A stretch of DNA of 64,000 nucleotides from the NCBI GenBank assembly GCA_020055645.1, contig CM034549.1:6138001-6202000 (forward strand), given 5' to 3'. Made by a program: the position numbers and the translations under genes. Of this stretch, positions 5,191-62,307 are shown one piece after another. The notes beneath the pieces were generated by a model. That model was not told the DNA's origin and searched no databases. It was given only the letters and a program-made list of their open reading frames with translations. Positions within the stretch are counted from its first letter, which is position 1, and every line of letters starts with the position of its first letter. Source of the DNA: Tomocerus qinae. Lineage: Eukaryota; Arthropoda; Collembola; Entomobryomorpha; Tomoceridae.

Positions 5191-5700
5191 GATGAATTAA
5201 CAACCATTAAATCATTAACGAACATTATTATTAACAATAGGGATTAATATTATCAAATTATTATTAAAACAAGTCGACTTCAAAGCGTTTTCGGGATGGG
5301 CCAGAAAAGCCAGAATAAAGACCCCTTCATTTCCGTTCGCTACTAACTACCTACTCTGACTACTTAATCCTACTTATACAATTAGTCAACTAATTAACAA
5401 ACTATTTAATATCAGACTGTAATTTATCGAAACGGAATTTATAAAATCTCACTGCCTTATTGTGTGTAACTACAAAACCTTAAAGCTCAACGTACACACG
5501 CTTCACGAGATTTTTTGTTGATTTTTGTAGTTACTAGTTAATTCTTTTTTTGTTGTATTAATTTAACTTATGTTATTATACTATTGTTATTATAAACGTT
5601 GTTCAATTGTTAGCTAGCCAAGTGCTATTTCTATTTTTCAGTATTGCGAGTTTCATAGAGTGCAAATGAAACGTTATGTCCGTCCGCTAATTTATATGCT

Positions 5701-10913: not shown

Positions 10914-12718
10914 TTGGCGTTATCGGTACACAATTTCTTTAATGCCCTTGTAATTAGGGCAAAAGGGGGAAAACAGTAACAGTATTCCTTTGACCAATCT
11001 ACAGTGAAAGCATCAATGAAACTTGCACCCGGTTGGCTGTGCCAGGAAACAAAACGTAAACATTGTTTTGTATGTGGGGATGCGAACATGTCAATTGTGG
11101 GGTTTCCGAATTTAACCCGTATTATCTCAAATAAACAAGAGTTTAGTTTCCAATCCGACTCGTCGATTTTAAACCGAGATTGTTCATCAGCCACGGCGTT
11201 ATTTTGGGATGAAATGTAACTAGCAAATAAAATTATACATCTATCTTCACACCACTTCCATATTCTCTTTGCAATTGAATGAAGATCATCAGAGTGACAT
11301 CCTCCAAACTTATTAATATACGCTATTGCTGATGTGCTATCGATACGTAGGAGAATTTTGCAATTTCTTTCCGTTTCCACGAAAGCAGAGAGAGACATCT
11401 CTACTGCCAATAGTTCTAATGTATTTATATGGTAATTCCTTTGTGCTAAGGTCCAATAACCTCTTGTGGTCTTATTGTTACAATCTGCTCCCCATCCGGT
11501 AAGGGAAGCGTCGGTGTGAATAACAAATTTGTAAATATCCTGGTGTATGGTCATAAACCCATAAGGTAATTTCTTAAGCCACCACTTGATATCTTCCTTT
11601 AAGTGATTTGGGAAATCAATTATATTATCATAGTCTGAGTTGCATCTTTTTAATTCTGCAGCTAGAAAAATTGCAATTTCTCTAGTATACAATGGACCAT
11701 ATGGTATAGCGGGACAGACTGAAATAAGGTGTCCTTTTAACTCTGATATATTTCGAATAGGTATTTTCTTCCACAACAAAGCTTCCTTACATCTCTGAAT
11801 TAGTCTGCCACGTTTCTTTTCAGTGAGACTTAAAGTTTCTGCCGATGTATTGAATAAAAATCCAAGATATGTCAGTTCTCTTGTTGGTTTTAATATTGAT
11901 TTTTCATTGATAACAAATCCTAATGAATCGACTAACTTTAACGTATCCTGAACATTAAGAAAACATTTTTTCTCGTTTTCCGCCATTAGCAAGAGATCGT
12001 CCAAATAGATAGACGATAGGTATCCCTTTTCTCTTAAAAAGGCAACCACAGGTTTCATCACCTTTGTGAAAAGGTAAGGTGCAGTCGATAAACCAAATGG
12101 TACACAAGTGTATTCATATAGTTGGGAATTAAACCTAAATCGTAGGTACTTTCTATCCGATTTTTGTATTGGTACATGTAGGTACGCATCCTAAATATCT
12201 ATTTTGGCCAAAAAATAATCTTTTCTAATAAGATTACAGACTGTTCGATAATCTTCCATTTTAAAATGAATCGTTTCGATAAATTCATTTAATGGTTTTA
12301 AATTAATTATTAGTCTTCGGCTACCATCAGCTTTAGGAACTGTAAAAATGCTACTGATAAATTGACCTTCAATGTCGTTCACTAGCTCAACCGCCCCAAT
12401 ATCTATTAATCTCTTAATTTCATTTTCTACAGCCATTTCATCCACTTTAGGAAGTACTTTACATTTTGTTTTGAAATTCTGAACCGGTTGGGTGTGAAAA
12501 GGAATTTTATAACCTAAGATTGTCTGTAGCACAAATTGGTCAGCTGTTAATGTTTTCCATTGTTCTACATACAAAGACAGTCTGCCAGCTATTTTTACCA
12601 ATGGGGGAATCTTGCTATTGCAATTTTGTTGAATAGAGCTACTTACGGAAGAAGAAATTATTGGTGGTTCTGTTGGTTTGATCGGCTGAATGGTCGAAAT
12701 TGGGCCCGACGATTCCAA
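10700..12718 (-). pseudogene. DIRS reverse transcriptase, RNase H and methyltransferase ORF, one stop
   Basis: The polymerase ORF of the DIRS element. From the N-terminus: reverse transcriptase with SRRLIINLKPLN and KID-x2-DAYLHVPI motifs, then FGLSTAPYLFTK and the YLDD catalytic box (near 12000-12020). RNase H follows with HTDASLTGWGA, LELLAVEMS, RIDSTSAIAYIN and AVADEQSR, which contain the four acidic positions. Last comes a Dam-like N6-adenine methyltransferase domain typical of DIRS1 elements (IDMFASPH, FTVDWS, CFPPFALI, VVPHWPTQPWYP). A TAG at 12191-12193 interrupts the RT palm inside KID-x2-DAYL, where related elements usually have Gln, so one C-to-T transition would explain it. The rest of the frame is open from 12718 to 10700. 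The ATG at 12718 overlaps the end of ORF1 in another frame. Confidence 0.88.
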
Positions 12719-13977
12719 GGTCCGCCGCGTGACCGGAGAGGGCCCTGTAGTTTAAAGGACGAGTACCTTTGTTGTAGGGAGTAAAGCGAGGCGAGAATTT
12801 TTTTCAAAAAGTTTCCTCGTATAATTTTCGAAGTAGACGTCGCTGCGCGAGCATCCTTTTCAATGTCATCTCCAAATAAGAATTCGGTCACTTTAGTTTG
12901 GTTTGAACATAAACCAGCAGATTCTTTTGTCATCACCTCCTTGATGTTCTTTCTCCGTTGTAAGTTAATATCGCGAAAACTAATAGCTAGGTTCACCGTT
13001 GCATCGACGGTCATTTTGAGAATTTTTGTGGTGACCTCATGTGGTAGCGTAGCTGAGTTTTTTGATATTTCATCAGCGATGAGTGACTGAATAATCATAG
13101 CTTTACTAACTCCCTGCAGAGTGCATTGAAGCTTTGCATCCTTTGTCTTCTGCATTTGATTAAAATTGGGATGATTCCAAATTTCGGGATTTACTTTTGG
13201 CACTCCTAAATATCTGCAGTTAGCGGGAGTCTTGTATTTTGACTTCAAATTATCGAGAATTTGCTTAGAGATATTCTGCTGAGGTATTTTATTAAAGGCT
13301 TCTGCCACCACGTGTGATAAATCTTCACCATAGTCTTGATCAGGAATAAATTCATTCAGTATACTACTGATGAGGTTTTCAGACGTGTCATTTTCACCGT
13401 CTTTATTTTCTAAAAACAAATTTAAGATTTAGCCAACTTACTGCGTAAGTGCCATCAAATAAGTTTCAAATACAATATAACATGTTAGCTGCTTACTACG
13501 TAAGCGCTATATTAGGTTGTACTTATCACTACGTGAAAGTACGTTTCGGATATTATGAATTTAAGTTCTTATTAAGTTTAGCCAGACTACGACGTAGCTG
13601 CTCTTAATCGTAAAATATTTACCTTCATTATCCACTTTATTGGATTGAGTACAAATTCCCATTCCCTCTAAGAGGGTGTCCAGAGGGTCGTCATCGTCAT
13701 AAATTTCATCCACATCCTCAGAAACACTAGCTTCGGTGGTGAGGATATTTGTTAGATTTTCGACGGATGAATTCAAGGTAGATAAGAGTGCGGATTGGGT
13801 TTCAACGGCTGATTGGAGAACAGAAATCTTTTTAATTTCTTCAGCATTTTCTGACACTCTTGCGGATAAGGTTGAGATGTTTACAAGCATTTCTCCATCT
13901 ATATTCTCGTCTACCGTAACTGGAGTGGTCTGATTTGTCGCCCTACTACGTAGTGCTCTACCTGACATACTATACAA
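12658..13977 (-). CDS. DIRS ORF1 (gag-like), probably spliced
   Basis: The 5'-most ORF of the element, in the gag position. Exon 1 runs 13977-13623 (start at MYSMSGRALRSRA or the internal Met three codons on) and ends at a donor reading GAAG/GTAAAT. Exon 2 runs 13409-12658 after an acceptor with a T-rich tract and TAG. Removing bases 13622-13410 (213 nt) keeps frame; without splicing, exon 1 hits a stop inside the intron at about 13561. Exon 1 is acidic and Ser/Thr-rich with a probable helix. Exon 2 is helical and ends in an Arg/Gly/Ser-rich tail suited to RNA binding. No zinc knuckle is visible. The 3' end overlaps the RT ORF by 61 bases in a different frame, so the polymerase is reached by internal initiation or frameshifting. 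The intron is inferred from splice signals. Confidence 0.65.
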
Positions 13978-14322
13978 TAAAAAATGTTGATTAGCTAGGA
14001 AAAAACTCTTTTTCGAAAATTGTGACAGCTCGCTGCTTACTATTAAGGAAAATGCCGTTTTAATATAAGGAAAGATGTAATAAAAATAGTTTCTGGGTGA
14101 CGATACAGACTTTGTGAGACTGAACGCAATTAGAAAGATACATTACCTGACGTTGAGTGCTGATGTTGATGTTCCAGCTAGAGGAGAGTTAGCCATTTAG
14201 TCAGCTGTCCTGGATTACACCGAGTGAAGTTAAACTAAATAAATAATAACTTTAATTACGGGAAAAAATTAGTTAGCGCCATAGGATTCTTTGCGTCCGA
14301 CCACCATGAGCGTAAGAAGGCA
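13978..14322. other. DIRS 5' leader between ITR and ORF1
   Basis: Unique element sequence between the ORF1 start and the inner edge of the right ITR. It holds no ORF of note. By position it would carry the element's leader; no promoter motif was identified with confidence. Confidence 0.5.
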
Positions 14323-32613: not shown

Positions 32614-34821
32614 AATAAACTGTTGGCAACAGGCGTATACGCAGGATCGAAGCGGGAGATTTAAAAAAAAATTCTGATGGTCTGGTTGCACGGAATTAGA
32701 CTACTACTAATAGGTTAATCTGGAAGGATAATGCTATAGGGCAAAAAGTGACAGCGTGTAGCTCTGAAACGGCAGTAGCGAAACTACACCTAAGGGAAAC
32801 CAATTACTTGCTAAAGCTTGTAGACTAGGTTGAAATGGTAGATGGTGCACGGCGCAGTGCACAACAATAACAATAATAAACTATATCCTGCTTGCATTGC
32901 ATTCACATGAAATTTCACGTTTGCAAGTTTGAGATCGCGCCACGACCATTTGCCTGCTTCGCAGCTTATGCCCAACCAACAATTGTTTATCAGTAAGTCT
33001 ATTGCTCTTAGCATGGTTTCCCAGTGGGTTGTCTGGTTGTCCTTCGATAATAAAATGCACGCATATTTTGGAACGACATAACTTGTTTAAAATCTGCTTT
33101 TTGCATATGGTAGCACATGTATTCAGCCACAATCAGTTATCATTAGAATCAAGGCAAATAGACAGATTCCCGCCTCTTCCTCCCTCCTTCCCCTGCCCGT
33201 ATCAGCTGGGTTCTGTAGAGAAAGTCCTATAAAATAGTTTGAAATTTTATATGGGACTTTCTTTTGAATTAGTCCCATTCCGGAATCCCATTCCTGTTCC
33301 AGATCAAACTGCTGGTAGTCATGAATATCCACCCTCCAGGAGTCAATTAACACCAAGCTAAATAGTGATATCTTGTCGATTTTGTAGATTCCACGATAAA
33401 ATGTTTATTCCAAATAGTGAACTTCAATTCTTCACCATGTGTCAACATGCAGAACTCAATTCCTAGTAGACTGTAAAGCTGGAAAGAATGGAATATGTCA
33501 TTTAATAATGAGTAGGGATGCATTCGGCAAGTCAGCTGGAAATACAAATTCAATATAGTAACGTGACTTAAACAATACCTAAATAGTAATATCTTGTTGA
33601 TTTTGTAGATTTCACTTACTACGCCATCTAAAATCTAGGGTTATAGTAGGAGAGTCTTTGGTCCAACAGTCTGGGCGGGGAGTTAATGGTATTGGTATTA
33701 GAGTATTCATATAAGTTCATATGAGTCAACATGCAGAACTCAATTATCCGCACCAAGTGACTGTAAAGTTGGAAAGAATCGAGTATCACGATTAGGATTA
33801 TACCAGATTAATATTTTTTTGGATTTCAATGCAAATTGAATATAGTATTGTGATTTAAACAATACCTAAATAATGATTTGTGACAACTGTAGTTAACTGC
33901 ACTCAGCACTGATGAATCCCACACGAGTATTTATAATGAAGTGACGATGGACGACCATTTCCATTATATTTTGACAATTTTTACTATAAAATGTTTCAAA
34001 ACTAATCACAACCCAATCAATTCCGCACCAGGTGACTGTAAAGCTAGAAAGAATCGAGTGTCACGATTAGGATTATACCCGATTAATAATTTTTTGGATT
34101 GCAATACAAATTGAATGTAGTATTGTGATTTAAACAATACCTAAATAGTGATTTGAGATAATTGTAGTTAACTGCACCTCACCCCTGATGAATCCCACAC
34201 ATGTATTCATAATGAAGTGAAGATTTCACTTGGACAACCATTTCCATTATATTTTGACAATTTTCACGTTAAAATGTTTCAAACTGTATTTAACTAATCA
34301 CAATGGACAAAAATCCTCTTCTTTAGCCAATTTTCACTTTTTGGTTACAATGCAGTGACAATATTGTTGCAATGAAACGAAAATTGTATTCAACTAATCC
34401 TTGCACTAAAGAGAAGCTATTTTATATTGCATTTGTCTCCCGCAGTTTCAGAGCATGTTAATACCAGCGCGGTGTGTAGTCTCTTAGATAGCTCAGCTCA
34501 TCTACAGTCCTCTATGCTACTACGCTGTCTGTCTCACCTGCCGTACTATTACTGTCTGCCTCACTTGCTGCATGTTTTAATTTCCACAAACCAGGGGATG
34601 CATCGAATTTGAATTTTAATGATAACTGGTTGATCCTGAATATATATGCTACCATATGCAAAAAACAGATTTGGAATAAGTTATGTCGTTGCAAAGATAT
34701 ACGTGCCAATAAAACACCCATAAAATTAGTGGACGACCAGACGACCAGACGACCAGACGATCGCCAGAGTGACAGCGACAAATTCATAAGGATACTAAGC
34801 AAAGCTTCGATCCTAATAAGT
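32614..34821. repeat. Two-kilobase repeat unit, copy A
   Basis: This segment is nearly identical in order to copy B (34921-38783) once later insertions are removed. Its two ends carry inverted-repeat sequence: about 33050-33150 matches the reverse complement of about 34618-34715, and AGGATCGAAGC near 32643 recurs in reverse near 34810-34820. The unit therefore looks like a non-autonomous DNA transposon with long imperfect inverted ends. Inside are two tandem diverged subunits of about 280 bp (33740-34010 and 34020-34290), each with the marker GACTGTAAAGCTGGAAAGAA or a close variant. No protein-coding capacity is seen. Confidence 0.75.
32689..33031. mobile_element. Unclassified 343-bp insertion in copy A
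   Basis: Copy B is continuous across this point (about 34991-34998), whereas copy A has 343 extra bases flanked on both sides by TCTGGTTG (32681-32688 and 33032-33039). An 8-bp duplication suggests a transposition event. The ends (CACGGAAT... and ...GTGGGTTG) do not form a clear terminal inverted repeat, so the class is open; a deletion in copy B by recombination between the octamers is the alternative. Confidence 0.5.
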
Positions 34822-35282
34822 ATTATGTATTATACCTTAATAAATAGTGTTGTTTGAAATAATGATAAAATATATAGTTGAATGTCGACATTAAAATGAC
34901 TCTGACACGGAAAAACAATAAATAAACTGTTGGCAAACAGGCGTATACGTAGGATCGAAGCGGGAGATTTAAAAAAAAATTCTGATGTTCTGGTTGTCCT
35001 TCGATAATAAAATGCACGCATATTTTGGAACGACATAACTTGTTTCAAATCTGCTTTTTGCATATTGTAGCACATGTATTCAGCCACAATCAGTTATCAT
35101 TAGAATCAAGGCAAATAGACAGATTCCTGTCTCTTCCTCCCCCCATCCCCTGCCCGTATCAGGTGGGTTCTGTAGAGAAAGTCCTATAAAATAGTTTGAA
35201 ATTTTATATGGGACTTTCTTTTGAATTAGTCCCATTCCGGAATCCCATTCCTGTCCCAGATCAAACTGCTGGTAGTCATGAA

Positions 35283-38203: not shown

Positions 38204-38424
38204 TTTTTTCAATTTTTTTCACCCCTGAAATTTTCCTCATTATTTATTTTTTTAAATCTGTGTAAGTGCCCTGAAATCTAATATTTTCCATCCCTGGAGT
38301 TGTTCACAGTACTCCGTATTTGCATTGAGATGTGAATGTAACTGGGATTATTGGGAATGGGAATACTACGTAACAGGAGTAAATGCATTTTTAAATCCGA
38401 CATTATTATCATTATAAATACACA

Positions 38425-38448
38425 CTCGCCAATGACGTCATTGGCGAG
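38425..38448. other. Perfect 24-bp palindrome centred on TGACGTCA
   Basis: The 24 bases are fully self-complementary, with the CRE/ATF-type octamer at the centre. It lies inside the 1.7-kb mobile element, between the inner hairpin and the right terminus. Binding is inferred from the core only. Confidence 0.6.
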
Positions 38449-38783
38449 CTTTTCCCACCCACTTTTAATTTTTTCATTTTTCCATAGGGATCTGCCTCGG
38501 GTTGGTGAAAACCGAAACCCTGTGTTAATTTACTGTAAAAAATACCCTAGTTACGTAATTAAAAATATCATAATCGACTTGTCTCCCTTTTCGACGAATT
38601 CGTACATATATGCTACCATATGCAAAAAACAGATTTGGAATAAGTTATGTCGTTGCAAAGATATACGTGCTAATAAAGTACCAATAAAATTAGTGGACGA
38701 CCAGACGACCAGACGACCAGACGATCGCCAGAGTGACAGCGACAAATTCATAAGGATACTAAGCAAAGCTTCGATCCTAATAA

Positions 38784-41607
38784 TGGTAGCACGTTCTTCT
38801 AATTCTAAATGCAATTAAGTAGTACAAAATGAACAAGCATAAATAAAACTGTATCGACATGAATTTTCTGGTTGTCTTAAAAGTATATATAAGAATATGA
38901 AAAGAATGTACTGAGTGAGAGAGGAGGAGGGGAGTTGAGGGTTAAGTATAGAGACCGGAAGACATGAAATCCGCCAGCTCATTTCTCCGACTGTGCAAAC
39001 AGGAGCCGGTGGGCTATTAACATTTCCTCGGTCTTTTCCCTCTATATATAAGCTTTGATACTTAAGTATCTCTGTATCTACATTCTATAAAGATCTTTTC
39101 TGATCTGAATGTGCAGCAATAACAAATCAACTCACTTATGCCGTTATGCTTATCAACTTCCTTAATATTTATTGCTTATAATTACTCTTATTTATAGACG
39201 ACGATTGTCTTTCCAATTTTATTTTATGGATTCATATAAATAAAACGTCATAAATCTATTTCTTGTTGTAAGTTGTTATTCAAGGGGAACATTTTGGAAC
39301 TAGAAGTATTTGTAGGTATAATGATCATACACAAGAAATTTCAGTTTTACAGAGGTACCTAACCATATAGAATTATATAAATATACATAACATACACATT
39401 ATCTAGCTAGTAGATGTAAATAAATGACATCGTATTAATTTATATTTAGTAAGTGAATAATATGAGTCATCTGAAAATGATTTTTATTTGGTGGAAATGG
39501 TCACAAACACGTAATGCACATTGTGTGTTGTAATACGATATATTTATAGAAATTGGAATGTACTTTAGGCATTGTAACGTAACACTCACTCCCATTCTCA
39601 AACACATTGCAATTTCATTACTCATTGTATCGTATCACGAGTATAATGCTGGACGACAGGAGATAAGTGTTTACTGCAATGGAAGTGAATGAATTGTCGT
39701 ATAAAATCTAATCGAAACAAACTGTAGAACACAATGGGATAATAAAAATGGTATTAATTATATTCGACGAAACGAATTCTCTACATTTTAATGCTTTTCG
39801 ATAACTTGCCAGCTTTTGTTTTATAGTTCCATTGAAAATCTTCTACAGTTCTACGTTCTACGAATGGCTTGGGGATTGACAGTAGTTAAAAAGTAATTTT
39901 AGTGAAACTATTTTATGCAATACAAATATGCTTAATAAATATTGGGAATGAGTAGAAGAACCTTTATCTGTAGTAGTAAATATGGGATATGAAAGTCAAA
40001 TGGAGTCTCCAAGCGGTTTTCATATCTACATCGGTGGGATGGGGTACTTAGAATTTCTTCGGATGAAATTGTTTGATATGGACACAGGGTGGTACTGAGG
40101 CAATCGGAAATGAGGGATTCGGGTAATTACTACGATGGCTAGTGGCTATTTATTCCAGTCTTACTTTTAAATGATCGGCTGAATGAATGATCCGAATCTG
40201 TAGGCATCTCGTAGTAGCAAGTCCAGGGAGACGTGGAGGAGGAGGAGGATGAGTCATTTTCCAGAGTCATGTGCTTGACCTATGAGTTTCCAGTTTGTTA
40301 TTTTTTGCTTCCCTGCTGGTCTTTCGCTCTCGTCATTACTAAAGTTGGCTCTGTTATTGCATGACAGAGCCACCACCCTGGAAATGAGTTGGGAAACTAT
40401 CAATTTATGGTCATCTCGTCTCTGTCTATAAATATATACCTTTAATGTTGAGTTGGAAGATGTGAAGATTAAATAGTGGACTGGAGTGTAGAGTGGATGG
40501 GTTCTGGCGGCTCCTCTCTCAATTTACAGTTGTTTTCCGTTCATCCCTCTCTTCCTTCCGTCGTCCATCCTCCTCCAGACCCCAAGAAGATCACTATCTT
40601 TATATTAGACAACTCCACTTTACTGTTATGTTATGAGATGTCTGTTGATCTCTCAAATGGCAATGGTAACCCCCTATACGCTCCCGCTTTACCATTTCGT
40701 CCAGGGTTTCTAATTTTTTGAACACATCTTCTGTCCTCCTGGTCTGGATATAATAAATAATTAATAATTAACAAGAGGTAATTTCCCCCCAGCAGGGCAG
40801 CACCAAAACAAACCTAGGGAGTTGAAGGTGCACCATAAGAATTGTAGGGAAGAAGTCAAATTATCGGTATAATAGGCAATTTTATGGTGAAAATCTTGAT
40901 GATCTGCCTTTTTAAATAAAAACTTCTTTTTTCTTCGATTTCATAGAAAGCGGGACGGAGTTTATATTCTCCAAAGCTAGAGTTTCATAAAATAGAGTCG
41001 AATCAGTAGAAACAGTTATAAAATTTGCACAAAAATATTCTACATTTCAGAAAAAGTCTTCTTCCGAATTGGAATCCCTGTTGACACTGTATTATTGTGG
41101 TAGCTATTATATGTAGTGCTGGAAATACTAAAGTGGACTGAGTGGGGAAGGCAATTGGCAATGAATGGACTCCGTGGACGGCTGCCTCGAGGGTCGAAAA
41201 AGATAAAAACTCAAAGCGACAATTTCAGGATTATCTAGAAAAACATTTTCCTTTTTAGTCTATATGAGTTTCCTGTCCAATTCAGTCGTCCAGTTCAGAT
41301 CAGAGACTATTCATAATAACACCAAACCATCTTCTGTATTCTGTAGCTGGAAAGGCGGTAGAAAAACGGGATGCTATATTTTCTGAACATCTCAAGTAAA
41401 CAAGGGAGTAGGAGTACGTATAAAGTTATAGGGAATGGGAAGTTCCAGAAATGTTCTTCGGAGCTTAGCCAGCTAAACTGATGAAAGTAGAAGAAAGTAT
41501 TTTGAGTTTTTTAGTGTTTGTGCGTGTCGGAGAAATGCAATGACGAGAGAGCAATTCCTGGAGAGGAAGTGTCCGATGTTGATGTGAGTTGATTTTGTTT
41601 TTGTTAG
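38784..41607. other. Non-coding DNA upstream of the Beat-like exons
   Basis: No coding exon supported; the acceptor at 41601-41607 shows that this is intron at least at its 3' end. The 81-codon frame at 40476-40721 lacks a signal peptide and does not end in a matching donor. By the phase of the first visible Beat exon (it completes a split codon), an upstream coding exon must exist further 5'. Confidence 0.5.
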
Positions 41608-49058: not shown

Positions 49059-49176
49059 CCCCAAAGTCTTAGGTGTGGTTGATGGGGTGGACGAAAAAGA
49101 AATAAAAGAAAACGTCAACGATTAATTACCATTTTACGCCCATTTGGCTGCTAATTTAAGCAAAGAAACAGAAAGA

Positions 49177-50420
49177 ATGTTATCTGCGATGAAAGTTTTT
49201 GTTGTGATGTTTCTGGTAAGTATTCCTTCTTCGGTGTTCAGAAGGGGAGTGAAGGGGGTGCCCTCTGACGCGTTCAAATTTCGGAATCACCTTGACTCAT
49301 CTCCACAGCCTGGGAAGACTTGTGTATACGACCCAAGGCAAGAAAAAGATATCAATGATAGTGACTATATCGATTTCGAGGCAGCTTATTATGACGAGTT
49401 ATTAAAGGTTATGGACGAACGAGAGAAACTTGATGAAGTTGATCCAGTTAACTCTTCGGCTCTGACAACTGCACTAGGCAAAGAAAGTGACATTGGCCTT
49501 ATAACCAATAAGTGGTGCATGGACCCTTTTCTTTTTTGTGACAAAGCCACTAGCACCTGCAAGTGTGGGCTCATTGACACAGCGACACACACTCCAGGTT
49601 GACTCCAGGCTCATTTTAATTTCACTATTTTCACTGTAAGAATGAAATGGACAAGACGGAGATTGTTTGTATCACATGAAATTTTCACACATCATATCAG
49701 AACCAATCTTTGTTAAATATTTTCCCCTTCCTTTCAAAAAAACCTTTCAAGTTTTTCAAACTTTTCACGGTTGATTTTTTTTCTTTTCCTTTATGAAGCG
49801 TTTTTGAAAAGGTTTGAGTTTTATTGCTCATTTCAATGTAATACGGAATAATAATTGAAATTTTTCAAAAATATAGGATATGGGATCAGGGTTCTGGGGC
49901 CATAAATTTTTCCCACCGTTTCAATTATCTAATGACTAGTGACAAAAATTCAATTTTTCTATTTTTATTCTTTATTATTGCTGTTTCTTTTGACCTTGAC
50001 CGAATTGTAAATAATTATTTGATTAATTTGATTAACACATTTAACTAAAATAATCCCATTGTGAAACGTCGCACAGAGTGTGTTGGTGTTCCCTACAACG
50101 AGATTGGGTTCCCGGAACACATTCAGCTGGAAGAAGAAAGCGATGACTCGGGTTTTAAATATTGTGTGAGACCAAAAGATGTGCCATGTGGAATGAGAGA
50201 CACTGTTTTCGGTAACTGCATGAAGAATATGTACTGCGCACCGAAATATTTTCATGGAAAATCAGAGAATTTCTGTGGCCATTGTACTTTAAAACCCGAA
50301 TCCGGATCCATACCCAGCGACCCAGACTTGAACCATGCCACTCGGCTTGTTGGAAACTATCAGTGGACTCTATCTCATTTAATCTACTCTACTTTAGTAG
50401 TTGTGTTGTTATTTAATTGA
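49177..50420 (+). CDS. Cys-rich secreted protein with probable GPI anchor
   Basis: Two exons, 49177-49597 and 50077-50420, join in phase to give 765 nt and 254 residues (250 from the second ATG at 49189, which begins the better signal peptide MKVFVVMFLVSIPSSVF). After an acidic spacer (residues about 45-100) there are two Cys clusters. The first spans the splice: WCMDPFLFCDKATSTCKCG then ECVG. The second has five or more Cys between residues 170 and 215 (FKYCVRPKDVPC, NCMKNMYC, FCGHC). The spacing C-x6-C-x-C resembles EB-type or related disulfide modules of arthropod surface proteins, but I cannot assign it. The C-terminus ends in a hydrophobic run (STLVVVLLFN) directly at the stop, as expected for a GPI signal. 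The acceptor at 50071-50076 has a weak pyrimidine tract; the Cys pattern and phase support it. Confidence 0.72.
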
Positions 50421-50787: not shown

Positions 50788-53700
50788 ATGAGTCGCCAAA
50801 GAAGGCTTTCCGGCTCACTGCTGGATCCGCAGGCCGAGGAGGAAATTGATCGTTTGGAGCAAGCACGGGGTGACGATACGGGAATCAGCAGGTAAATTAC
50901 AGACTTCGGCTTTTGTTTCGGGTTTCAATTCCAGATGTATTTAAATTTATATGTGTATCCAATTCCAGATGTGTATTTAAATGACATTTTTTAAAATTTA
51001 TAGCGAGCTTATCGGTGTCTTTTCGGAAACAAGTAAGATTTACTATATTAAAAGAATGTAGATCGAATTTTGAATCCAATATTTGAATTTCTTAAATGTC
51101 AGGAGGATTCTTGATGGTAGGTTGATATTTTTGCTAATTTTTTGTGTTTTGTTCAATCATTCACAGGGCAAAGGGAGAATTCTCAACGGTCGTTACAGTT
51201 AAATGGTACAAATGTCGTGTTGAAGGAAACAGAGAAATCAGTATATACTTCGATAGCATGTGTTGGGTGTCAAAAAGTTTACGCTGGAGAAGCTTGTAAG
51301 TTTCAAAGCTTTTAAATGACTTATTTTTTGAAATAGATTAATATTCCAATAATTTGTTATTGTACAGCCCTTCTGTCTCATTTGGAACAAGTAGAAGAAT
51401 GCGGGAGGGGAATTATAGATAATGCAGACATTGACAGAATGAGATGCAAAAAGTGTTGCAGAAACATTAATCAGCCGAATCCTAATGTCAATCATCTGTT
51501 TACCTTGCTGCAGCATATCAAGATGTGCCAGGCGAAAAGAAAAGAAAGATGGAATAGACAAGTATCTTCCAACAGCTGGGAGCGACCACGAAACAATGCC
51601 GCGGAAACTAGCGTCAGTAAGTCATCAATATTTAATACTACTTTCATTTTTCCATATGAAAGAAAATATTACCACAATTGAAATCAGTTTAAAATCTTAT
51701 TTTCATCACATTAATCATGTTCAAGTAACTGAAGACGATGTTTATCGTCCAAATTCCAAATGAAGGGGCAATTTTTTGTTACAAAGTTCCTCAAAATATC
51801 TATAATCTATTGAATTGCTCATTTTTGTTGGTCAAAGATATATTACATTTATTTTCTAATTTTCAAGAATCAGAGTATAAATATATATCCACAATACAAA
51901 ACTATTCTAATTGTGGTTATGCAATTCACGATGAATTAATCTAAACCCCGAGTCAAGAAAAGCTAATATAGTTAGTAGTCCTAGTCTAGTAGTCTTAAAT
52001 AGCATTATGTAAATGTATGTATTATTGAGGGATTAATATTATTCAGCACTAAATTATTTGTATAGAAAATGGTCCTAAAGAACGAAAGAAGGAGACGCAG
52101 GGGGAAGCAACATGTTCAAAATGCTTCACCTTTTTCATTGAAGAGGAAGGTAAGTAGTTATTAATATATTAATATCATACCATTTAGAGAATGTGCACAT
52201 TTATTATTGCAATGGTACAACTAACAACTGAAGAGAGAGGAATCACACCTAGTCATAAACTTTATGGAAATAGATATTATTTCGTTCGACAGCTTAGAAC
52301 AATATATATTTTGTACAATGAGTGCCATTCAAATTTCGTTTTTCAGGGATATTGATATTAAAATTTATACATAAAATTATAACTTTAATTGTTATTTGCA
52401 TCAAGTAGCTATATTGTATTAAATTACCTCACCTCACAGTCGTCGTGTTTTCCAATACTATCATCAAAGTCAATGTCAAAGTATGGCGAAAACATGATTT
52501 TTTATATTACTCATAATCTTTGGTGTGGAATTAGGAGGATCTGAAAGTTGCTCAAGTGTTACATAATGTGTGCACATTCCATCTTTATGCAAATTATTAT
52601 TTATTCGAGTCAAAAATGTGACCCTGGTGGGTGATAAGAATAAGTTGCATACATCCACAATGCTATTTCAATACAAAAAAGTTTACCCTAGGTTGTACTA
52701 AGGTCAAGTTCCAGTTTTAGAATATTTTTTGACTCCGAGTTTGAAGTAACATCTTTCTTCCATCTTCCTTGCAGAACTTGTCAAGCACATGGTGAAGAAT
52801 GAAAACAACTGCCGAACTAGTCAAGAGGGTGATTTCAAAGCAGGGTGTCCAAAATGTAAAAAGTCTTGGTCTTCAGAGGAAATTAGTTTTAATTCAAGGC
52901 TACTTCATTATACTAGATGTGACGGAGTTTCTTGCCCTCCAGTCCCATCCTCCTCCAATGCTCAAGCTCCTAATCCGGTTCTACCTCCGACTAGTTTTCC
53001 AGCACTGTCTCGTACAACTGGAAATGTGACCACGCTATCTGTGCACACTAACTCCGATTCTGACGATGATCTTCAGATTATAGACTGTGTTCAAAAAGAT
53101 GGATCGAAATGGTGCTTAGATACCACTCCAACACCTGACGAAGATATCAAGTATCCTGTTCAAAACGAAGATGGACTATTGGACAATCTAGTTAGATCAT
53201 CTCCCCAAGGAACTCCAAAACCTTGCACTTCAGACAATGTCGTTAGGCCATCTACCCAAGGGATCTCGAAAACTTTGCACTCGGAAAATGCTGCAAGATC
53301 AACTCCCCAAGGAACTTCAAAACATTCTTCAGAAAGTACTTCTACGTCAAATCCCAGTGGAACGTCAAAACATCATTCAGAAAGAACTTCTACGTCAAAT
53401 TCCCGTGGAACTCCAAACCAACACTCAGAAAGTATCTCTAGACCATCTCCTCAAGTAGTTCCAAAACCTTTAAATTCAGAAAATAGTTCAACTTCTAAAG
53501 GAGCTCAAAAACCTTCACATTCAGAAAGTTTCGTTAGACCATCTCCCCAGGTAGTGTCAAAACCTTCTCAAAGTATTCCGAAACCTGTCCAGTGTGTTCA
53601 GAGCAATAGTGATTCAACAGTTACACCCAGCAGGGAGCATATACCGGTTCAGAGAGTTGACAAAGAATATGTAGTGATCGAGTATAATCATGACAGTCCA

Positions 53701-56700
53701 TTGACTGATGCCAAGGTAAAAGTAATTGATTATGGTCACAAAGCGGATATTCCAGTTCAACCACCATCTCCCCCCATTCCCTCACTTCAAAATTCAGCAG
53801 AATCACACCGAACTCCGAATCGCCCGAGTTTATACCCAGTGAACCAAATGGGTCCCCCAGCCGCGAGGAGTTCTTTCATTTCGCTGCCCAAACAAAGCCC
53901 TCCTCCCCCATCTTTATCCATTCCGAAACATACTCCGTCACCGCCTTCAATTTCGAGTCGTGCTCCACCTGCCAATCAGCAAATCTCTCAATCAAGTCCA
54001 AGTCCCCCCAGCAATAGGGCAACATCCACACCGAATGCGAAAAATAGTTTGTCACTAACACCGGGCAATAAACGATTAGATCCTATTCCAGGATCTTCAA
54101 GATCGACTCCCCAGCCATCTCACAATTCAGCCAACAATAATAATCGATTAGATCCTATTCCAGGATCTTCAAGATCGACTCCCCAGCCATCTCCCAATTC
54201 TGCGAACAATAATAATCGTTTAGATCCTATTCCAGGATCTTCAAGACCAATTCCTCAGCCATCTCCAAATTCGGTGAACAATAATAAACGATTAGATCCT
54301 ATTGGACCTTCCAGACCGACTCCTCAGCCATCTCCAAATTCGGCGAACAGTAGATCGGACTCTGTTACAAGAACTTTCAATAGATTCGAGCAGAGTCCTT
54401 CACCATCTCCCACATCGGGGATTAATCAAAGAGATTCTACTCCAGTGCGTATTAATCAAAGTAGATTCGAAGTAACACCAATAACGGTGAACAGAGATGT
54501 ACAAAGCATCGATTGGGACGCCCAGTCGACATGTTCTTCCGTAGCGAGTACCGCGACAACTCCAAATTTTGAAATGAGGCCGCCACCTGTTCCAAATAGA
54601 AGGGAAACAACTCCAGTACGCTCTAGCAATTATGTTCAGCCCCCTCAGCCACCATTAGTGACGAATCAACGCCCAATTAACAACAATGGGCAAGGCATCG
54701 ATTGGGAAGCTCAGTCTGAGTATTCGTCTGTGGCAAGTGGACTTTCTACTCCAGAGCTTTCTATGTATAACCCATCAGAAGATGACTTTCAGCGAATGAA
54801 AATCAAAGGCGAAATGAATATCACATCACTTCAGAATTTGTACAAAAAGTGTAAATACTGCAACTTGAACTTCGAAAGATTTTTGGATGGCATGAAGCAC
54901 TTCAACGAAAGACATTGGCAGAAGAGATGTCCAGGTTGTCTCAATCTCGTGAATGCCAAAGACAACAATTACAAAGATCACTTGAAAGAAAAACATTTCC
55001 ATTATTCCAAGCGAACAGGAAAGTGCGATGAACATATTCGATGCAAATTTTGTAACGAACGATTTCACTACGAGTCAATATGGGATCACATAGCAAATGT
55101 CCATGTAGACCCTCCAGTTGCCACAATTCCTTCTCCACCTGAGACTGAACTGATAATGGAGCCTGTACCCCCTGGACTCATCCCACAATGTGAATTCTTT
55201 TTACTCAAATATTCTTTTTGTTCAATATTTAATATATTTTTATGTTGTATATGTGCTATATATTAAATTTATTTAACTTGTTCATTTGTTTTTATTTAAT
55301 CTGGTGTATAATTATTATTAATCTTTGAAGTAGGGATAAACCTGGACATCCCGGAGTGCTTAAATTCTTCAAACACATCTTTTGAGTCAACTGAGAATGT
55401 TGATGTCGTGGTTGGGGGTGGGAATCATTACTTTACTCCCCCAGAAAAAAAAGTGATGATCCAATATTTCCTGAAAGATTCCAATCCCACATGGAAAGAA
55501 AGTTGTAAGGAAGTTGCAGCTCTTCTCAAGATTGATACCAAACAGGCTTATGTAATAAGACTATTTTATTATATAGCCTAAGATGTTAGACTTGTTTTAA
55601 CTGATAATAACTAGTATAATTAGTTCATATACACATGGTTCAATTTGTACCTAGAGGATCCAGTTCTGGGAAATCAGCCCATTGTAAGGATCTTAAAAAC
55701 CGTTTTAAAACTTATGATTCTCTTTTCTTCTAGCGTTGGTTCCGCACTGTCTATAACACATTTAAGAAAGGGGAATATCCTACATGGGCAGTAACCACCA
55801 ACGGTGTCAAATGTAGGTCATTTACTCATTAACCCGTTATTTGTCTCTTTCTATTCATTTAAATTAAAATACGTGGAATTTTTTATTCAGTATATCAAGC
55901 GACCACACTACCAAATGGGAAATTACATGTCGTTTTCATTGGTCAGAAATCATCGGGCCGCAGAGGTCAGTTTTTTAAAATTGTGCACTAACATACGTTT
56001 ATTTATAATTGTTTAAATAATTTTATGCATTATTTCACATTATAGATATCAATAGTAGTTCTTCTGAAATAGAAGAAGGGGAGGTGGTTGATGATGACGA
56101 AGTGGAGCAAACTGAAGTAATATCCCCTGGAAATGGACAACGTTTGTCTCGATTAGATGATAGGTCTCGGAACCTCGAGAATGATACCAGGCGATGTTCA
56201 GATGATCGTCATATTCATAACAATCGTCACGGACACCGAAGGGAGTCAACTTCAGTCTCAGCGAGCGACAGAGGCAGCAACCACGATACCCGTCGTCATT
56301 CTGAGCCTGACCGAGTTGCTTCCAGTAGCAGTGGAAGACCATCAGCGGAAAAGTCAAGGAAGCCTAACAAAAGGAGGGTGATTGAAAGTGACGAGAGTGA
56401 AGAAGAGACTGAAGGGGCGAGAAAAAATATCCAGAAGACTCCTAATGAAGTAGAAGATGGAGGAAATGATAGCGATACGGAAAGTTGTATAACACAAATA
56501 ATCCCACGGACAACTCCAGCGAGAACACCAAATATAAAACCAGAACCCATTTCTAATAGGCTTAGCCAGCCAATCCCTCCGACATATAAAGTGTTTCCGA
56601 ATCCTCCACAACTACCACCTGGAATACAAAATCGACATAGGGAGACTGTTTCCCAAAGGGTGCCGCAGGGAAACTTACCCCAAGGAAACTCTAAAGTCAA

Positions 56701-59700
56701 TATGCATCCTCCAGCTCAACACCGGAAATCAGCAACAGAAAATATGCCTCAGACGAGTCCCAAAATAAATAAAGAACCTCCGCCCCCTCCACAACACCGG
56801 AATCAAAATTCTGCAACTATTCCCGAAAAAGTAAATACAGTTGGTCGCCAAAATCCTGAGACAGTTCGCGAAAGGATGGCAAGCTCTAAAGTAAACAATG
56901 TACCGCCTTCATCTCCAGCTCAACACCGGAGTCGAACAGAGACTTCATCGGAAAGACTACTTGCAGCTACTTCCAATAAAAATAAGGATACCCCGTTCCG
57001 GTCGCCTGCTCGAAGCCAGACTGTGGAAACCCCAGAGAAACAAAGTAAGGAAAGGAGCACACGTAGTCGGAGTAGAAAACGGTCGCGTAATCGTGCAGAT
57101 GATGGAGACAGTTCTTCTGACTACGAACCTTTAAAGAAAAAGAAGGAATCCTCTAAAAACAAAGAATCTGCGAAAAAGAGTAAATCGACAAACAATTCAA
57201 CTCCATCGCCATCAACTTCCAAAAATGTGGACAAGCGGGAGCACCGGAGAGACGAATCCTCCGAAAAGTCTAAACCTCCTGAGAAACGAGGCAATGAAAA
57301 GGATACACGCAGTCGGAGTCGAAGTAAAAAGCGATCGACTAACCCAGCAAATGACGAGGACAGTTCTTCTGACTACGAACCCTCGGGGAAGAAAAAGAAG
57401 GACTCTAGAAACAAAGACTCGGAGAGAAATAAAACACCGACAAACAATTCAACGCCATCGACATCAACTTCCAAAAATAGGGAAAAGCGGGAGCACCTGA
57501 GAGACAAATCATTCGAGGAGTCTGAACCCCCTGAGAAAAGGAAACGATGTTCGACGGAAAGCAATAGTCGACCGCCAGCAGAGTACACTGTGAAAACGTC
57601 TACACCTTCTAAAGTCATCTTGGAAAAGACTAGCAGCAGCTCCAGAGGACGTGTCAGTGAAGGTACTTCTCAGAATTCCAGTAAGTTTTAAATTCCTTAA
57701 TATTCAAAAGTATTGCAGACATTGAGAATTTTCTGCATCATAGCAAGCAGGTTGTTCTAACTGCTTCACCCTTCCTCCACATTGGAAATTTGGAAAATAC
57801 TTTCAAAATATTGGAACTTTATTTTAGAAATATCAGCTAGAGAAGTGGTTGTGGGAATCAGAGAATTCTTGACGCATGACTGGTTTATTGATGGTTATTA
57901 TTTAGTCTGAAAAGCTGCAGATAATTCTCATCCTAATTTTTTGGCAGTTGTATTATTTTGCATTGCAGTTGCACTATCATTAATAATAAATACTATTATC
58001 TGTGCTTGTGCCACCGCCACCCTTAATTGTCATTCGGCTTTTGAATTCAAGTGATAAAACGAAACGACTAAAAAGCATGAATAAAAATATCAAAAAGCTT
58101 AAGAGTAACGAATTTTGCTTGTTGACTAGACTAAATAACTGCCGCGCGATATTTCTGAAAAGTGTTTCAAAGTGCATGTTGTAAGTAATAACCCTTGAAA
58201 TTGACATTATTTTTCTGGACTCCGTTTTCAGTATATACAAGAATCTCAGGAGTTAAAGCTTTATAATGGCTAGTCAAAAACTAGTCAATGGTGACATCAA
58301 AATTTTTTTAATGTATTTAAAAATACTGTCCCAATATTTTTCAATATGGTCAAATAGGACATTTTTCTAACAGATTTAATGGTGCTAAATGCTGGGAAAA
58401 TATTTTCAATTCAATTTTTTAGTTTTTTAATTTAGTTTCGTAATTTAATACATTAAGATTTTATTTAGTAAAGTATTCGCGTTAAAATCTGTCAGAAATA
58501 TATCTTACTTTTCAATATTAATAATTTTTGACAGTTTTAAATACATTTAAAAGGTTTGGATGATGGATGTCACCACCGTTGACTAGTTTGTGTACACATC
58601 ACATGACATGTCATATTTAATTGCGACGAACAATTCTTTGCACATATTTGTATTGTAATAAAAAGATTATATGACTCCTGAACTACCAATTGAATGTATT
58701 GCGATGGAGGCTATTGTTTTTTGGCCAACATCAATAAATGCAAACGTACTTAATGCTTCTTGCAGATAAGGCTGTTGAACATCCAAGTGTTCAGTTGCTA
58801 GTCAATGTAACCGATACCTTGAAGGGCATCGATGAAGAGGTCGAGGCAAGTCATAATTACAATGCCAATCTGCTTGAAAAGAAAGTGGAGGAATGTAGAA
58901 AGGAAGTGGAGCGTCTTCAGAAGGAAGATGGGGATGCCGCGATGGCGAAAGTCATGCCTAAATTACTCCTCAAGTGTGAAGTCCTTCTCAAAAAAATTAA
59001 AAAGCGGAGTCTAGGTAGCTTTCTTTAATGTGCGTTGCTGTTAATTGCTTTTAATGCTTGAATTTATTTGTATTTATTGTAGTATGTTTGTATTTATTTA
59101 TTTTTAAATTAATTGCTCAGATTCAATTTAGAGGTACCACGAGTAGTTTGTAGTTCGAATTCGAACAATAATATTACCCAATAATATATTGTGCAAAAGT
59201 ATCAGTCTTTGTGCATCAAAGAGAAGTCATTCAGCCAAATATTATTAGATAGATATTTGACTTTCATTTCTAGTGTTTGGTGATGATCTTAATCAGTTGT
59301 AGGTATATGCTTCCTTTAATGCAATTAATTTTAAATACCCACCCAATTTTCGATTTTATTTGAGCACTGCACTGACACTGAGTATTCTACTAAGATTTGT
59401 AGTATTTTTGTATTCGGAACAGGTAACAATCGCGATTACTCGTGGCTTCTCAAATCAAATTGAATAGAATTATTTTCCATTTTCCATGTACTTAATTATA
59501 GTGACATAAATTAATTTTTAAATACACGAGGCATGGATTTTTAAATAATTTCACACCTAAAACCATATAAAAATTATCGCATTGATACCGATCATTAAAT
59601 TTTAAAAGAATATTATAATTAATTATCTTAAACATGGACATCGTGTATATTTTATTGTAGAATCTGCGAATTCTGAACTCCCATCCAGCTGTCCACCATC

Positions 59701-62307
59701 GCAAAACAAGTCTTCAAAATTGTCTTTTAAAAATATTGAAACTCAATTACCCGCAGCAGCCCCAAAAGGACCCCAGAAAAGTACTCCTAAACCTCACACA
59801 TCTCCACGAGCTGAAACTGCCAAAACTCCGAAATCAACTACAAATTCTTTGCCGAAAAGTTTACAGCTTGTACAAAAACTATGTCACAATGCGCAAAAAG
59901 GTGTAGATGCCCGTAAGAAATCTGTTTCATCTGATCCAGCTGATGCCAGTCTTTCCAAAGAATTTCCTACCGGTGAATATAATAGTTTCTCAGCTACTGC
60001 AGATTCAAATGTGTCTCCGTCTCAATTAGAGTCAGAAAATGTTCGTGAAAGATTTGGAATGGCATATTCTCCAAGAGAAGAAGCGACTCCACCAGGAAAT
60101 CCTCCAAGACGTCATTCAGGAAATAATTTTTCAAAAGGAGGAGCAAGTGACCCCGGGCCGTTTGGTGGGCCGTTTGGTGGGCCATCTCCCCCGCATATTG
60201 TAAATAATTTTACGGCATGTAGAAATCAACAGGAAAGTGTTGCGTTTAGAAAAGCATCTCCACCTCCGCCAGGAGAGCCAAATATTGTTCCGCCGTCACT
60301 TCCAACTGTCACAAATAATTTCAGAGGTCGAGGCGGGAGAGGAAACGATACCTGGAGGGGAAGAGGGTCTGGCCAGCGAGGACAGGGATTTAAACGCGGA
60401 AATAATAACAATCAATTTAACCGTGGACAGAAACAATCCTACAGAGGACATCCTAATAATTATCGGGGCGGTAATGCAAACTGGAACCCTCCCGCCAATA
60501 GTTACGGAGTTGGAAATACCAATTGGACCCCGCAAGCAAGCCCGGTAAATAGCTATGGAGGTGCAAATGCAAATTGGACCCCGCAACCAAGCCCCGCTAA
60601 TAATTATGGAGGTGGGAATGCAAATTGGACCCCACAAGCAAGCCCCGCCAATAGCTACGGGGGTGGACCTACAAATTGGACCCAGCAAGCTAGTCCCACC
60701 ACTAGCTATGGGGGTGGAAATGCATTTTGGAATTCACAATCAAGTCCTGTCAATACTTTTGAGGCAAGAAATTCAAATTGGGACGCTCAGGATTATCCCT
60801 CCAATAGTTATGAGCGGAGGAAGAAAGCCTGGTCAGGGCCAAGTCCAAGTTCTGAGCTTGCAAGTGATTGTGACTGGGACGGTCCTCCTAGTCCCCCAAC
60901 TGTAATTAATCATAACCACGGAAATGCTGTAGAAGAACTGGGAAACCCCAAATGTATTGCGGAGCAAGGAAATGACGATTGGGGATATGTAAGAGAACCT
61001 AACGAATTCGGAAACATTGCTCCAAATAGCAGCATTAACAGCTTCTGGGACAACCAAGCTGTTCCAGGCCCCTCCAACCAAAGTGTTCCGAATCAATTGC
61101 CTCCTAATCTGCAATATAGTCCCAGCCCCCCAGGAGAGAACGTAGCGATAAGCCCAAATGAGGGGAGTCCTAATAATGAAATGAGCCCAAGGGTTGGACC
61201 CTCAGGCTCTTACAGCCCACAAGAAAAGAGACACTTGCTAAAATCCCATCGGGGAAGCAATGGTAAGCCACTCCCTCACGATTTATTGTACTGCAACTGG
61301 AATAATACTTTTTTCATTTTATAATCAAAGATTTTTTATGATAAATAACCTTTCCTTTACATAGTTTGTTTGGGAACTACAAATAAGTTTGTGCGATTTT
61401 TAGTAATTATTTTTATGCCTTTTGGGTTTGTGTTGCCATAAAATATTCAAAACAAAAGTTCTGAAGGTTAAGCCACATATTATGGCTGATTATATTTATG
61501 CTTACTATATATTTTTAGACAATTTAATATTTACTAGGTCACGTGAACAATGGTTATAATTTTACCAAATATATTTTACTGTTTATTTTCAGGTGATAAT
61601 TACAAAGCCAGACATACCCAAATGCGGGGAGTGAAACGCAAATACTTAACTGACCTATTCAAAAAATCCAAACCACTTTTTGACACGCTGCATGAACAGT
61701 TCTTCCGTGAACAGCCTACTGACTATTTGTTCAACGTCCTCACACAAACAGATCAGCTGCAGCCACTGATAAATACCCAGCGGGCATTTGGTGGTGACGA
61801 ACGACAGTTTATTGATGAGCTATTGGACAAGGAGAAAGGCTACCGAAACGAATATGTTCGTGGTAAAAACTTCAAGAAAGATATCGCCAGAGTCTGGGTC
61901 CTCGTCTTCGTCTATGCACGCAATTTCAATATGTCTGTAGATGAGGCTGTCAAGGACTTCATTGATAACCGAAAATTCGCGGTAAGATTTTTTATTAGTA
62001 ATTATCTAAGTCTTTGTCTCTTTTTATCTCGTCACTTTCCAAATTCTTACAAAAATAAACAAACTATAGACAGTACTATATTGATTGCCATTTATTAACT
62101 AAAATGATTAACTATATTAATTAATTCTTGATGCAGTTAATACTTTAATACCACCTAATTATTTTGTTGTATACAATTTTTTTATTTAACAAATTCAATG
62201 GTCAATACGCAAATTATTAAATACGGTTGTTTTTTGAATTGCAGAAAACTCCGAATAAATTACCAGACATTGGAACTATCAGGAAAATGTTTTTGGGCGT
62301 CAGTTAG
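50788..62307 (+). CDS. Giant multidomain zinc-finger/homeodomain-like nuclear protein, unrecognised family
   Basis: Fourteen coding exons: 50788-50891, 51004-51032, 51167-51295, 51368-51616, 52066-52149, 52775-55189, 55334-55551, 55734-55812, 55891-55965, 56046-57680, 58766-59014, 59661-61262, 61593-61981, 62245-62307. They total 7,320 nt and 2,439 residues with every phase matching. Four C-x2-C...H...C modules occupy residues 76-99, 114-141, 187-211 and 223-247. A long Pro/Ser-rich region follows, then three C2H2-like fingers at 891-912, 917-939 and 955-975. A divergent homeodomain-like segment at about 1037-1090 ends in RWFRTVYNTFKK. Next come an acidic and SR/KS-rich region (1128-1672) with an 82-residue duplication, a coiled coil (1673-1755), an RGG tract (about 1975-2030), 17-residue repeats (2042-2144) and a compact C-terminal domain (about 2290-2419). 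A nuclear DNA- or RNA-binding scaffold is inferred. An acceptor at about 50773 suggests a 5' UTR intron. The donor after exon 6 (AAT/GTGAAT) is weak. Confidence 0.82.
54073..54357 (+). repeat. 72-bp coding tandem repeat (24 residues)
   Basis: Four units with exact 72-bp spacing (starts 54073, 54145, 54217, 54289) inside exon 6. Each encodes RLDPIPGSSRSTPQPSPNS plus an Asn-rich linker; the last unit lacks three residues. Nucleotide identity is high, so expansion is recent and copy number may vary. Confidence 0.93.
55325..55333 (+). promoter_or_regulatory. Tandem NAGNAG splice acceptor at exon 7
   Basis: Two consecutive AG acceptors (GAAGTAG, cut after 55330 or 55333) both keep reading frame. 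One gives Trp at the junction and the other gives Leu-Gly, so alternative use would change the protein by one residue just before the homeodomain-like region. Confidence 0.5.
57059..57545 (+). repeat. 82-residue coding duplication in the SR/KS-rich region
   Basis: Bases 57059-57304 and 57305-57545 encode two diverged copies of a unit that starts TRSRSR..KRS, contains DSSSDYEP followed by a Lys run, NNSTPS-STSKN and KREH-RD, and ends PPEKR. The offset of 246 bp is an exact multiple of three. Confidence 0.9.
58281..58587. mobile_element. MITE in intron of the giant gene, GTCAACGGTGACA family
   Basis: Both ends carry CTAGTCAA, then GGTGACATC, then a TGTATTTAAAA-type block in inverse orientation, giving imperfect arms of about 50 bp around an AT-rich centre. 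It lies in the intron between exons 10 and 11. Related ends occur at 19413 and 48089. Confidence 0.78.
60521..60826 (+). repeat. 51-bp coding tandem repeat (17 residues)
   Basis: Six units spaced exactly 51 bp apart (starts 60521, 60572, 60623, 60674, 60725, 60776) in exon 12, preceded by a shorter degenerate one at about 60479. The consensus is NWTPQASPANSYGGGNA; the last two units are diverged. Aromatic residues spaced in a Gly/Ser/Asn/Gln background resemble phase-separating low-complexity domains, which is an inference from composition. Confidence 0.95.

Follow-up and report, generated by a model that had tools for sequence, protein, structure and literature searches.

A candidate zinc finger-homeobox-type gene and its small paralogue family in Tomocerus qinae

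A 64,000-nucleotide stretch of the 334-Mb genome of Tomocerus qinae (C4:6138001-6202000; hereafter the window) contains a locus that was initially annotated as a single gene for a protein of 2,439 residues, in which zinc modules, C2H2 fingers, a homeodomain-like fold and an unfamiliar C-terminal domain follow each other in an order known from no family. Is this combination one gene or several read as one, and if it is one, to which class does its product belong and what might it do? We addressed these questions by rebuilding the gene model and by comparing its parts with the rest of the genome and with domain, structure and contig collections.

Gene model and neighbouring features

Rebuilt from the DNA, the window gene consists of 14 phase-compatible exons at 50788-62307 on the plus strand, which encode 2,434 residues, rather than the 2,439 first reported, and end in a single stop codon (62305-62307). 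The fourteen phase-keeping exons of the initial annotation are thus recovered, with GT-AG boundaries in all 13 introns, 10 of which are in phase 1. Four of the exons (805, 545, 534 and 129 codons) have open lengths that were reached by none of 300 shuffles each.

The start of the model is its least certain part. The best splice sites of exon 1 and of the first finger exon are out of phase unless a microexon is added; the microexon, its intron of only 50 nt and, further on, the weak donor gtgaat at the end of exon 6 are all predicted. Alternative first exons (donor 50869 or AAG acceptor 51173) also give open models, of 2,422 and 2,427 aa, but were set aside in favour of the microexon model, whose sites we judged to be stronger. 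All features are collected in Table 1.

Table 1. Exons and features of the window gene (positions are those of the window; aa, residue numbers).
Feature	Positions	Strand	Basis or remark
Exon 1	50788..50891	+	begins MSRQRRLSGSLLDPQAEEEI; by eye like first exon of the C1:134.26 paralogue (RRRRNSESLLHDYLEEV)
Exon 2 (microexon, 14 nt)	51103..51116	+	brings exon 1 into phase with the first zinc finger exon; most doubtful of the exons
Exon 3	51167..51295	+	
Exon 4	51368..51616	+	
Exon 5	52066..52149	+	
Exon 6	52775..55189	+	
Exon 7	55334..55551	+	
Exon 8	55734..55812	+	
Exon 9	55891..55965	+	
Exon 10	56046..57680	+	
Exon 11 (charged, probably helical)	58766..59014	+	heptad score no better than shuffles
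Exon 12	59661..61262	+	
Exon 13, C-terminal domain, about 130 aa	61593..61981	+	predicted helical, low confidence
Exon 14	62245..62307	+	
Zinc finger A1 (C-x2-C-x12-H-x6-C, aa 71-94)	51259..51402	+	motif scan
Zinc finger B1 (C-x2-C...H-x3-C, aa 109-136)	51445..51528	+	motif scan
Zinc finger A2 (C-x2-C-x12-H-x7-C, aa 182-206)	52113..52812	+	read from gene model
Zinc finger B2 (aa 218-242)	52846..52920	+	motif scan
72-bp tandem repeat, RLDPIPGSSRSTPQPSPNS-type units	54067..54349	+	inside disordered linker
DW[DE]AQS..SSVAS linear motif, two copies	54511..54804	+	just ahead of C2H2 fingers
Three C2H2 fingers (aa 886-970)	54850..55104	+	ligand spacing; ligands kept in paralogues
Degenerate homeodomain (aa about 1029-1083), then P-x-WA	55423..55769	+	Pfam, alignments, PDB profile search
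Basic region with two short SR stretches (aa 1462-1550)	57062..57328	+	motif scan
RG-rich segment (aa 1971-2022)	60320..60475	+	motif scan
51-bp tandem repeat, 17-residue units with one Trp each (SYGGGNANWTPQASPAN type)	60491..60781	+	

Elsewhere in the window, the minus strand carries at 9833-14142 a retroelement, presumably DIRS-like, with a reverse transcriptase (RVT_1, E 1.1e-14), a Dam-methyltransferase-like stretch (PF05869, E 1.1e-7) and, in a separate frame, a tyrosine recombinase (PF00589, E 5.4e-11). The plus strand contains a strongly acidic/lysine-rich frame followed by Gly/Pro-rich frames (3755-5200; no Pfam match at cut-off in the two frames scanned), two frames (34492-34857 and 38342-38818) with an almost identical segment in common (YATICKKQIWNKLCRCKDIRANK...), which is probably a dispersed repeat, and frames for a cysteine-rich, secreted-looking protein (49126-50420; no Pfam match at E<=0.1) that end about 370 bases upstream of the window gene.

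Paralogues and shared introns

None of the five pieces of the protein that were scanned, 889 of about 2,430 residues, passes a Pfam cut-off, and the same holds for NCBIfam in the pieces scanned. The window gene nevertheless belongs to a small family in its own genome, where we found paralogues at C1:134.26, C1:134.84, C1:75.07, C1:75.09 and C2:41.62 Mb as well as broken pieces at C1:75.82-75.83 Mb. This count is a lower bound, because the genome search scores just its best candidates. With the C-terminal domain as query, C1:134.84 and C1:75.07 were each matched at 38% (E 6.8e-17 and 4.1e-16, respectively); the match at C1:75.09 is broken into pieces and contains a stop, and that at C1:75.82 is a fragment. 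The query of fingers plus homeodomain matched C1:134.84 (43%, E 1.6e-20), C2:41.62 (42%, E 6.9e-14) and C1:134.26 (29%, E 1.8e-7), and the N-terminal zinc array matched C1:134.26 (35%, E 1.6e-5). Weaker matches of the fingers-plus-homeodomain query (E 0.03 to 5.4), at C4:7.27, C1:136.09, C1:134.98, C5:0.52 and C1:6.82 Mb, and one of the zinc array at C1:61.83 Mb (E 8) stand outside the family count. We left out C1:136.02 Mb (E 0.01 with fingers plus homeodomain), which scores weakly and whose 749-codon frame is a C2H2 array; a multi-finger C2H2 gene lies in this vicinity (minus strand, 3375-5498 of the stretch fetched), with fingers weakly like those of the family.

Different subsets of the domains are present in the different copies. 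C1:134.26 opens with a first exon and one A-B finger pair, followed by repeats, three C2H2 fingers and the homeodomain; C2:41.62 has a DWD motif, three C2H2 fingers and the homeodomain; the C-terminal domain was not found in the stretches fetched at these two loci. C1:134.84 combines three C2H2 fingers, the homeodomain, a basic exon and the C-terminal domain, and is listed without the zinc pair because the zinc array search matched nothing there. At C1:75.07 and C1:75.09, where we found no C2H2 fingers, the homeodomain is followed by an R/S/G-rich exon and the C-terminal domain, the latter in pieces at C1:75.09. The full set occurs in the window gene alone among the copies found, and each of the five paralogues arranges those domains that it has as the window gene does. 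The broken locus at C1:75.82-75.83 departs from this arrangement: its C-terminal pieces precede its homeodomain pieces by about 13 kb, both being on the same strand, and a stop and a deletion are present in the homeodomain piece (C1:75.83).

Some of the intron positions are shared as well. An intron in phase 0 splits the homeodomain one residue ahead of the helix-3 Trp in 6 of the 6 copies with both halves readable (the window gene, C1:134.84, C1:75.07, C1:75.09, C1:134.26 and C2:41.62, the broken C1:75.83 being left out), and in all six the homeodomain is followed by the P-x-WA motif. In both the window gene and C1:134.26, a phase 1 intron separates the C2H2 exon from the exon that begins the homeodomain. 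These common intron places support the reading of the window gene as one gene, and the occurrence of shorter relatives elsewhere in the genome indicates that the combination of zinc fingers, homeodomain and end domain is real and no error of reading. From the structure of the paralogues we infer a single transcript, and we are highly confident that the locus is one real gene of this family, in keeping with the initial annotation of one multidomain gene, most of whose domains recur in the same order.

Over the homeodomain plus 74 C-terminal-domain residues, the window gene and C1:134.84 differ with pN 0.354 and pS 0.784, the latter near saturation, which is a signal of purifying selection. For C1:75.07 vs. 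C1:75.09, dN is 0.091 and dS 0.174 (four of five pairs, the helix 3 pair being left out), and one of the four C-terminal/homeodomain pieces is unconstrained (pN 0.095, pS 0.097). Constraint at the protein level is present but loose. The region C1:75.06-75.10 Mb holds recent duplicates of a homeodomain/C-terminal-domain gene, with broken pieces at 75.82-75.835 Mb, and near C1 75.076 Mb there is a frame that looks MADF-like by eye.

Domains of the window gene product

The zinc modules of the initial annotation are present as four C2HC fingers in two pairs (A1-B1 and A2-B2), an array also matched at C1:134.26. Finger A2 went unlisted in the motif scan because its spacing falls outside the scan pattern. 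A1, A2 and the C1:134.26 finger are all interrupted by a phase 1 intron 12 residues past the first Cys, which suggests that the two pairs of the window gene were duplicated. An alignment of A1-B1 with A2-B2 is no better than shuffles (183 of 2000 reach its score); a tandem origin, with the A1/A2 intron place as its sole support, is considered likely. Against the PDB, a profile of the zinc pair (one row with a wrong junction) gave 24 matches at E<=1, to zinc finger proteins and over finger A only.

Low-complexity linkers separate the ordered ends, as first described. A linker of about 640 residues, rich in Ser, Pro and Asn, lies between the zinc pairs and the C2H2 fingers; its 24-residue repeats have a pN of 0.201 and a pS of 0.355, which are rough values since the last unit is one residue out of register. 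The second DW[DE] copy aligns with the pre-finger stretch of C2:41.62 at a score of 58 that none of 2000 shuffles reach, the pair having been picked post hoc. The C2H2 fingers annotated from the outset, three in number, also occur in C1:134.84, C2:41.62 and C1:134.26, and none of those in the window gene is above the Pfam cut-off.

In a homeodomain, Asn51 and Arg53 contact DNA. In helix 3, two copies of the family read WFSNQR and the others WLSNCR, WFSSTR and WFTSER, so that Asn and Arg are both kept in three copies and Arg alone in two; the window gene, with WFRTVY, has neither. Its homeodomain reaches 16.0 bits in Pfam, below the cut-off of 22.9 and slightly below its score for HTH_23 (16.8 bits, also under cut-off). 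Three of the six family members pass the Homeodomain cut-off, namely C1:75.07 (28.4 bits), C1:75.09 (27.9) and, just above it, C1:134.84 (23.1), while C2:41.62 stays under it (16.5) and C1:134.26 has no Pfam match at E<=1. The paralogue homeodomains are 26-38% identical to that of the window gene. When a five-member profile was run against the PDB, all 26 sequences at E<=0.05 were homeodomain proteins (best, POU6F1, 4.2e-5); with a four-row profile containing two wrong letters, the matches at E<=1 include a few non-homeodomain chains, from E 0.21 on. As judged from its sequence relatives, the segment is a homeodomain by descent: the lineage is genuine, and this copy has degenerated. What was first called a homeodomain-like fold is thus present, its ancestry being visible via the paralogues, and is better described as a degenerate homeodomain. 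Because the helix-3 Asn and Arg are replaced, it probably no longer reads DNA in the ordinary way.

The downstream half agrees less closely with the initial annotation. The SR-rich segment exists as two short stretches, RSRS at 1462 and RSRSRS at 1544; the RGG segment is RG-rich, with just two strict RGG; and the coiled coil of exon 11 is not supported, as 106 of 500 composition shuffles match its heptad score.

The C-terminal domain, by contrast with these, kept its description as a domain without a known family, no natural relative beyond the paralogues having appeared at a cut-off in Pfam or NCBIfam, in the single-sequence PDB search or among viral and prokaryote contigs. It occupies one frame in the window gene, C1:134.84 and C1:75.07, and is in pieces at C1:75.09 and C1:75.82. 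In Pfam, the window gene copy has no match at E<=10, and two paralogue copies have matches that are all under cut-off (best, Condensation, E 0.0018, 17.5 of 30.6 bits); the best NCBIfam match, at E 0.0075, is far under cut-off. A three-row profile gave 11 matches in the PDB, ten of them with whole-sequence E-values of 2.1e-8 to 1.6e-4. These ten are named as designed TIM-barrel proteins and TFD chains, the latter presumably also designs. The E-value of the best designed-protein match is the sum over four repeated stretches, which individually reach only 8.8 to 34, and we take these matches to be a probable repeat artefact. The single-sequence structure model is all helices, at low confidence (pLDDT 55), and a Foldseek search with it returned 42 matches at E<=10 and none at E<=0.001.

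Class, rival readings and possible function

The zinc finger (ZF) homeobox class, as described in passages of two papers, combines C2H2 or C2H2-like fingers with a homeodomain and may be polyphyletic (PMC4901127, PMC2211742). Its members (Adnp, Tshz, Zeb/zfh-1, Zfhx/zfh-2 and Zhx) have fingers and homeodomain in one protein, a build that the window gene would share, its fingers of the required type being recognized by ligand spacing and by the ligands kept in paralogues. The window gene differs in its single degenerate homeodomain, its N-terminal C2HC pairs, its unplaced C-terminal domain and its RG and Trp repeats. By its build it would fit this class, its own homeodomain being too divergent to certify the assignment alone. 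Given the family membership and the real homeodomain lineage behind the degenerate copy, this known, loosely defined class offers the best comparison.

We rejected an identity with Zfhx (zfh-2), a protein type that has several homeodomains. The homeodomain of PDB 2da2 matched C2:23036205 (78%, E 2.6e-22), in a 1945-aa frame with a second homeodomain match, and the window gene is absent from the four genome matches of this query at E<=0.001; the orthologue therefore most likely lies elsewhere, at C2:23.04 Mb. We take 2da2 to be ZFHX3, and likewise the 'alpha-fetoprotein enhancer binding protein' of 2da1-2da3. The region C2:23033001-23037344, with at least two homeodomain matches and a 1945-codon open frame, is a probable Zfhx/zfh-2 orthologue in its own right. 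The abstract of PMC12871285 places the Zfhx protein type at the base of bilaterians. The homeodomains of POU6F1 (PDB 3d1n) and 2da1-2da3 are among the nearest solved ones to the family profile. Unlike POU6F1, the window gene has no POU-specific domain in the pieces scanned with Pfam, and the likeness (best E 4.2e-5) does not go beyond a shared fold family.

On balance, we favour a nuclear protein of divergent ZF-homeobox type, with a probable role as an adaptor; at about 2,430 residues it is the largest found in a small duplicating family. The family plan would comprise one or more optional C2HC finger pairs, a long disordered linker and, in some members, three C2H2 fingers, followed by the homeodomain with P-x-WA, a basic disordered region and, again in some members, the helical C-terminal domain. 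The fingers may dock the protein on DNA or RNA, and the RG-rich part may add RNA contact. Partners may be held by the C-terminal domain, by the RG-rich tail and by the Trp and DW[DE] motifs, so that the protein, as an adaptor, would recruit a complex to chromatin or nascent RNA. We put forward this chromatin- or nascent-RNA adaptor role more tentatively, at somewhat under even chances; the product may similarly act as a chromatin/RNP scaffold, the idea of the initial annotation.

Four other readings were weighed. An ordinary ZF-homeobox transcription factor with a homeodomain that has kept its DNA binding is unlikely: three paralogue homeodomains do keep WFSNQR or WLSNCR and pass Pfam, and the C2H2 fingers adjoin the homeodomain, but the altered helix 3 and sub-threshold score of the window gene and its very long disordered, RG-rich and Trp-repeat regions argue otherwise. 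We consider somewhat less likely again a mainly RNA- or RNP-directed scaffold (splicing, small-RNA or condensate), with RNA-binding fingers and Trp repeats that hold a partner, for example by an Argonaute-type pocket. RGG- and GW-repeat RNP proteins have RG-rich stretches and Trp in low-complexity regions. The window gene shares with them the RG-rich stretch and regularly spaced Trp, nine in number at a spacing of 14-17 residues from 2025 to 2156, with pN below pS between adjacent units (0.257 vs. 0.55; 6 adjacent pairs, 7 units). It differs from them in that strict RGG and SR motifs are few and there is no GW/WG series, since none of the nine repeat Trp lies in GW or WG and one WG occurs at 2191.

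The remaining two readings question the gene itself. A decaying or newly domesticated copy with no settled function, possibly of mobile-element origin, would agree with the broken pieces in the family, the low identities among its members and the DIRS-like element in the same window; it is improbable in view of the three longest open exons, the excess of pS over pN, and the lack of any transposase, reverse transcriptase or integrase match in the five pieces scanned. That neighbouring genes (two or more) were joined by chance agreement of phase, as the introns of 1,085 and 646 bases flanking exon 11 might suggest, is highly improbable. A single open frame takes in half of finger A, all of finger B and the C2H2 block, both in the window gene (838 codons) and at C1:134.26 (699 codons). 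At C1:134.84, the C2H2 fingers, homeodomain and C-terminal domain succeed one another inside about 3 kb, and at C1:75.07 the homeodomain and C-terminal domain likewise lie in order.

Returning to the divergent ZF-homeobox-type protein, a broader and more speculative possibility is that the locus represents an undescribed animal ZF-homeobox-like family, with an orphan helical C-terminal domain and lineage duplications. In its largest member, the homeodomain would have been repurposed from DNA reading and zinc pairs, RG and Trp repeats added, so that a transcription factor may have turned into a giant chromatin/RNP adaptor. Such a further ZF-homeobox protein, with a C-terminal domain of its own and a fast gene turnover, would help to show how homeodomain proteins give up DNA reading and turn into adaptors, a change that is directly testable since, within a single genome, some sister copies retain the contact residues and others do not.
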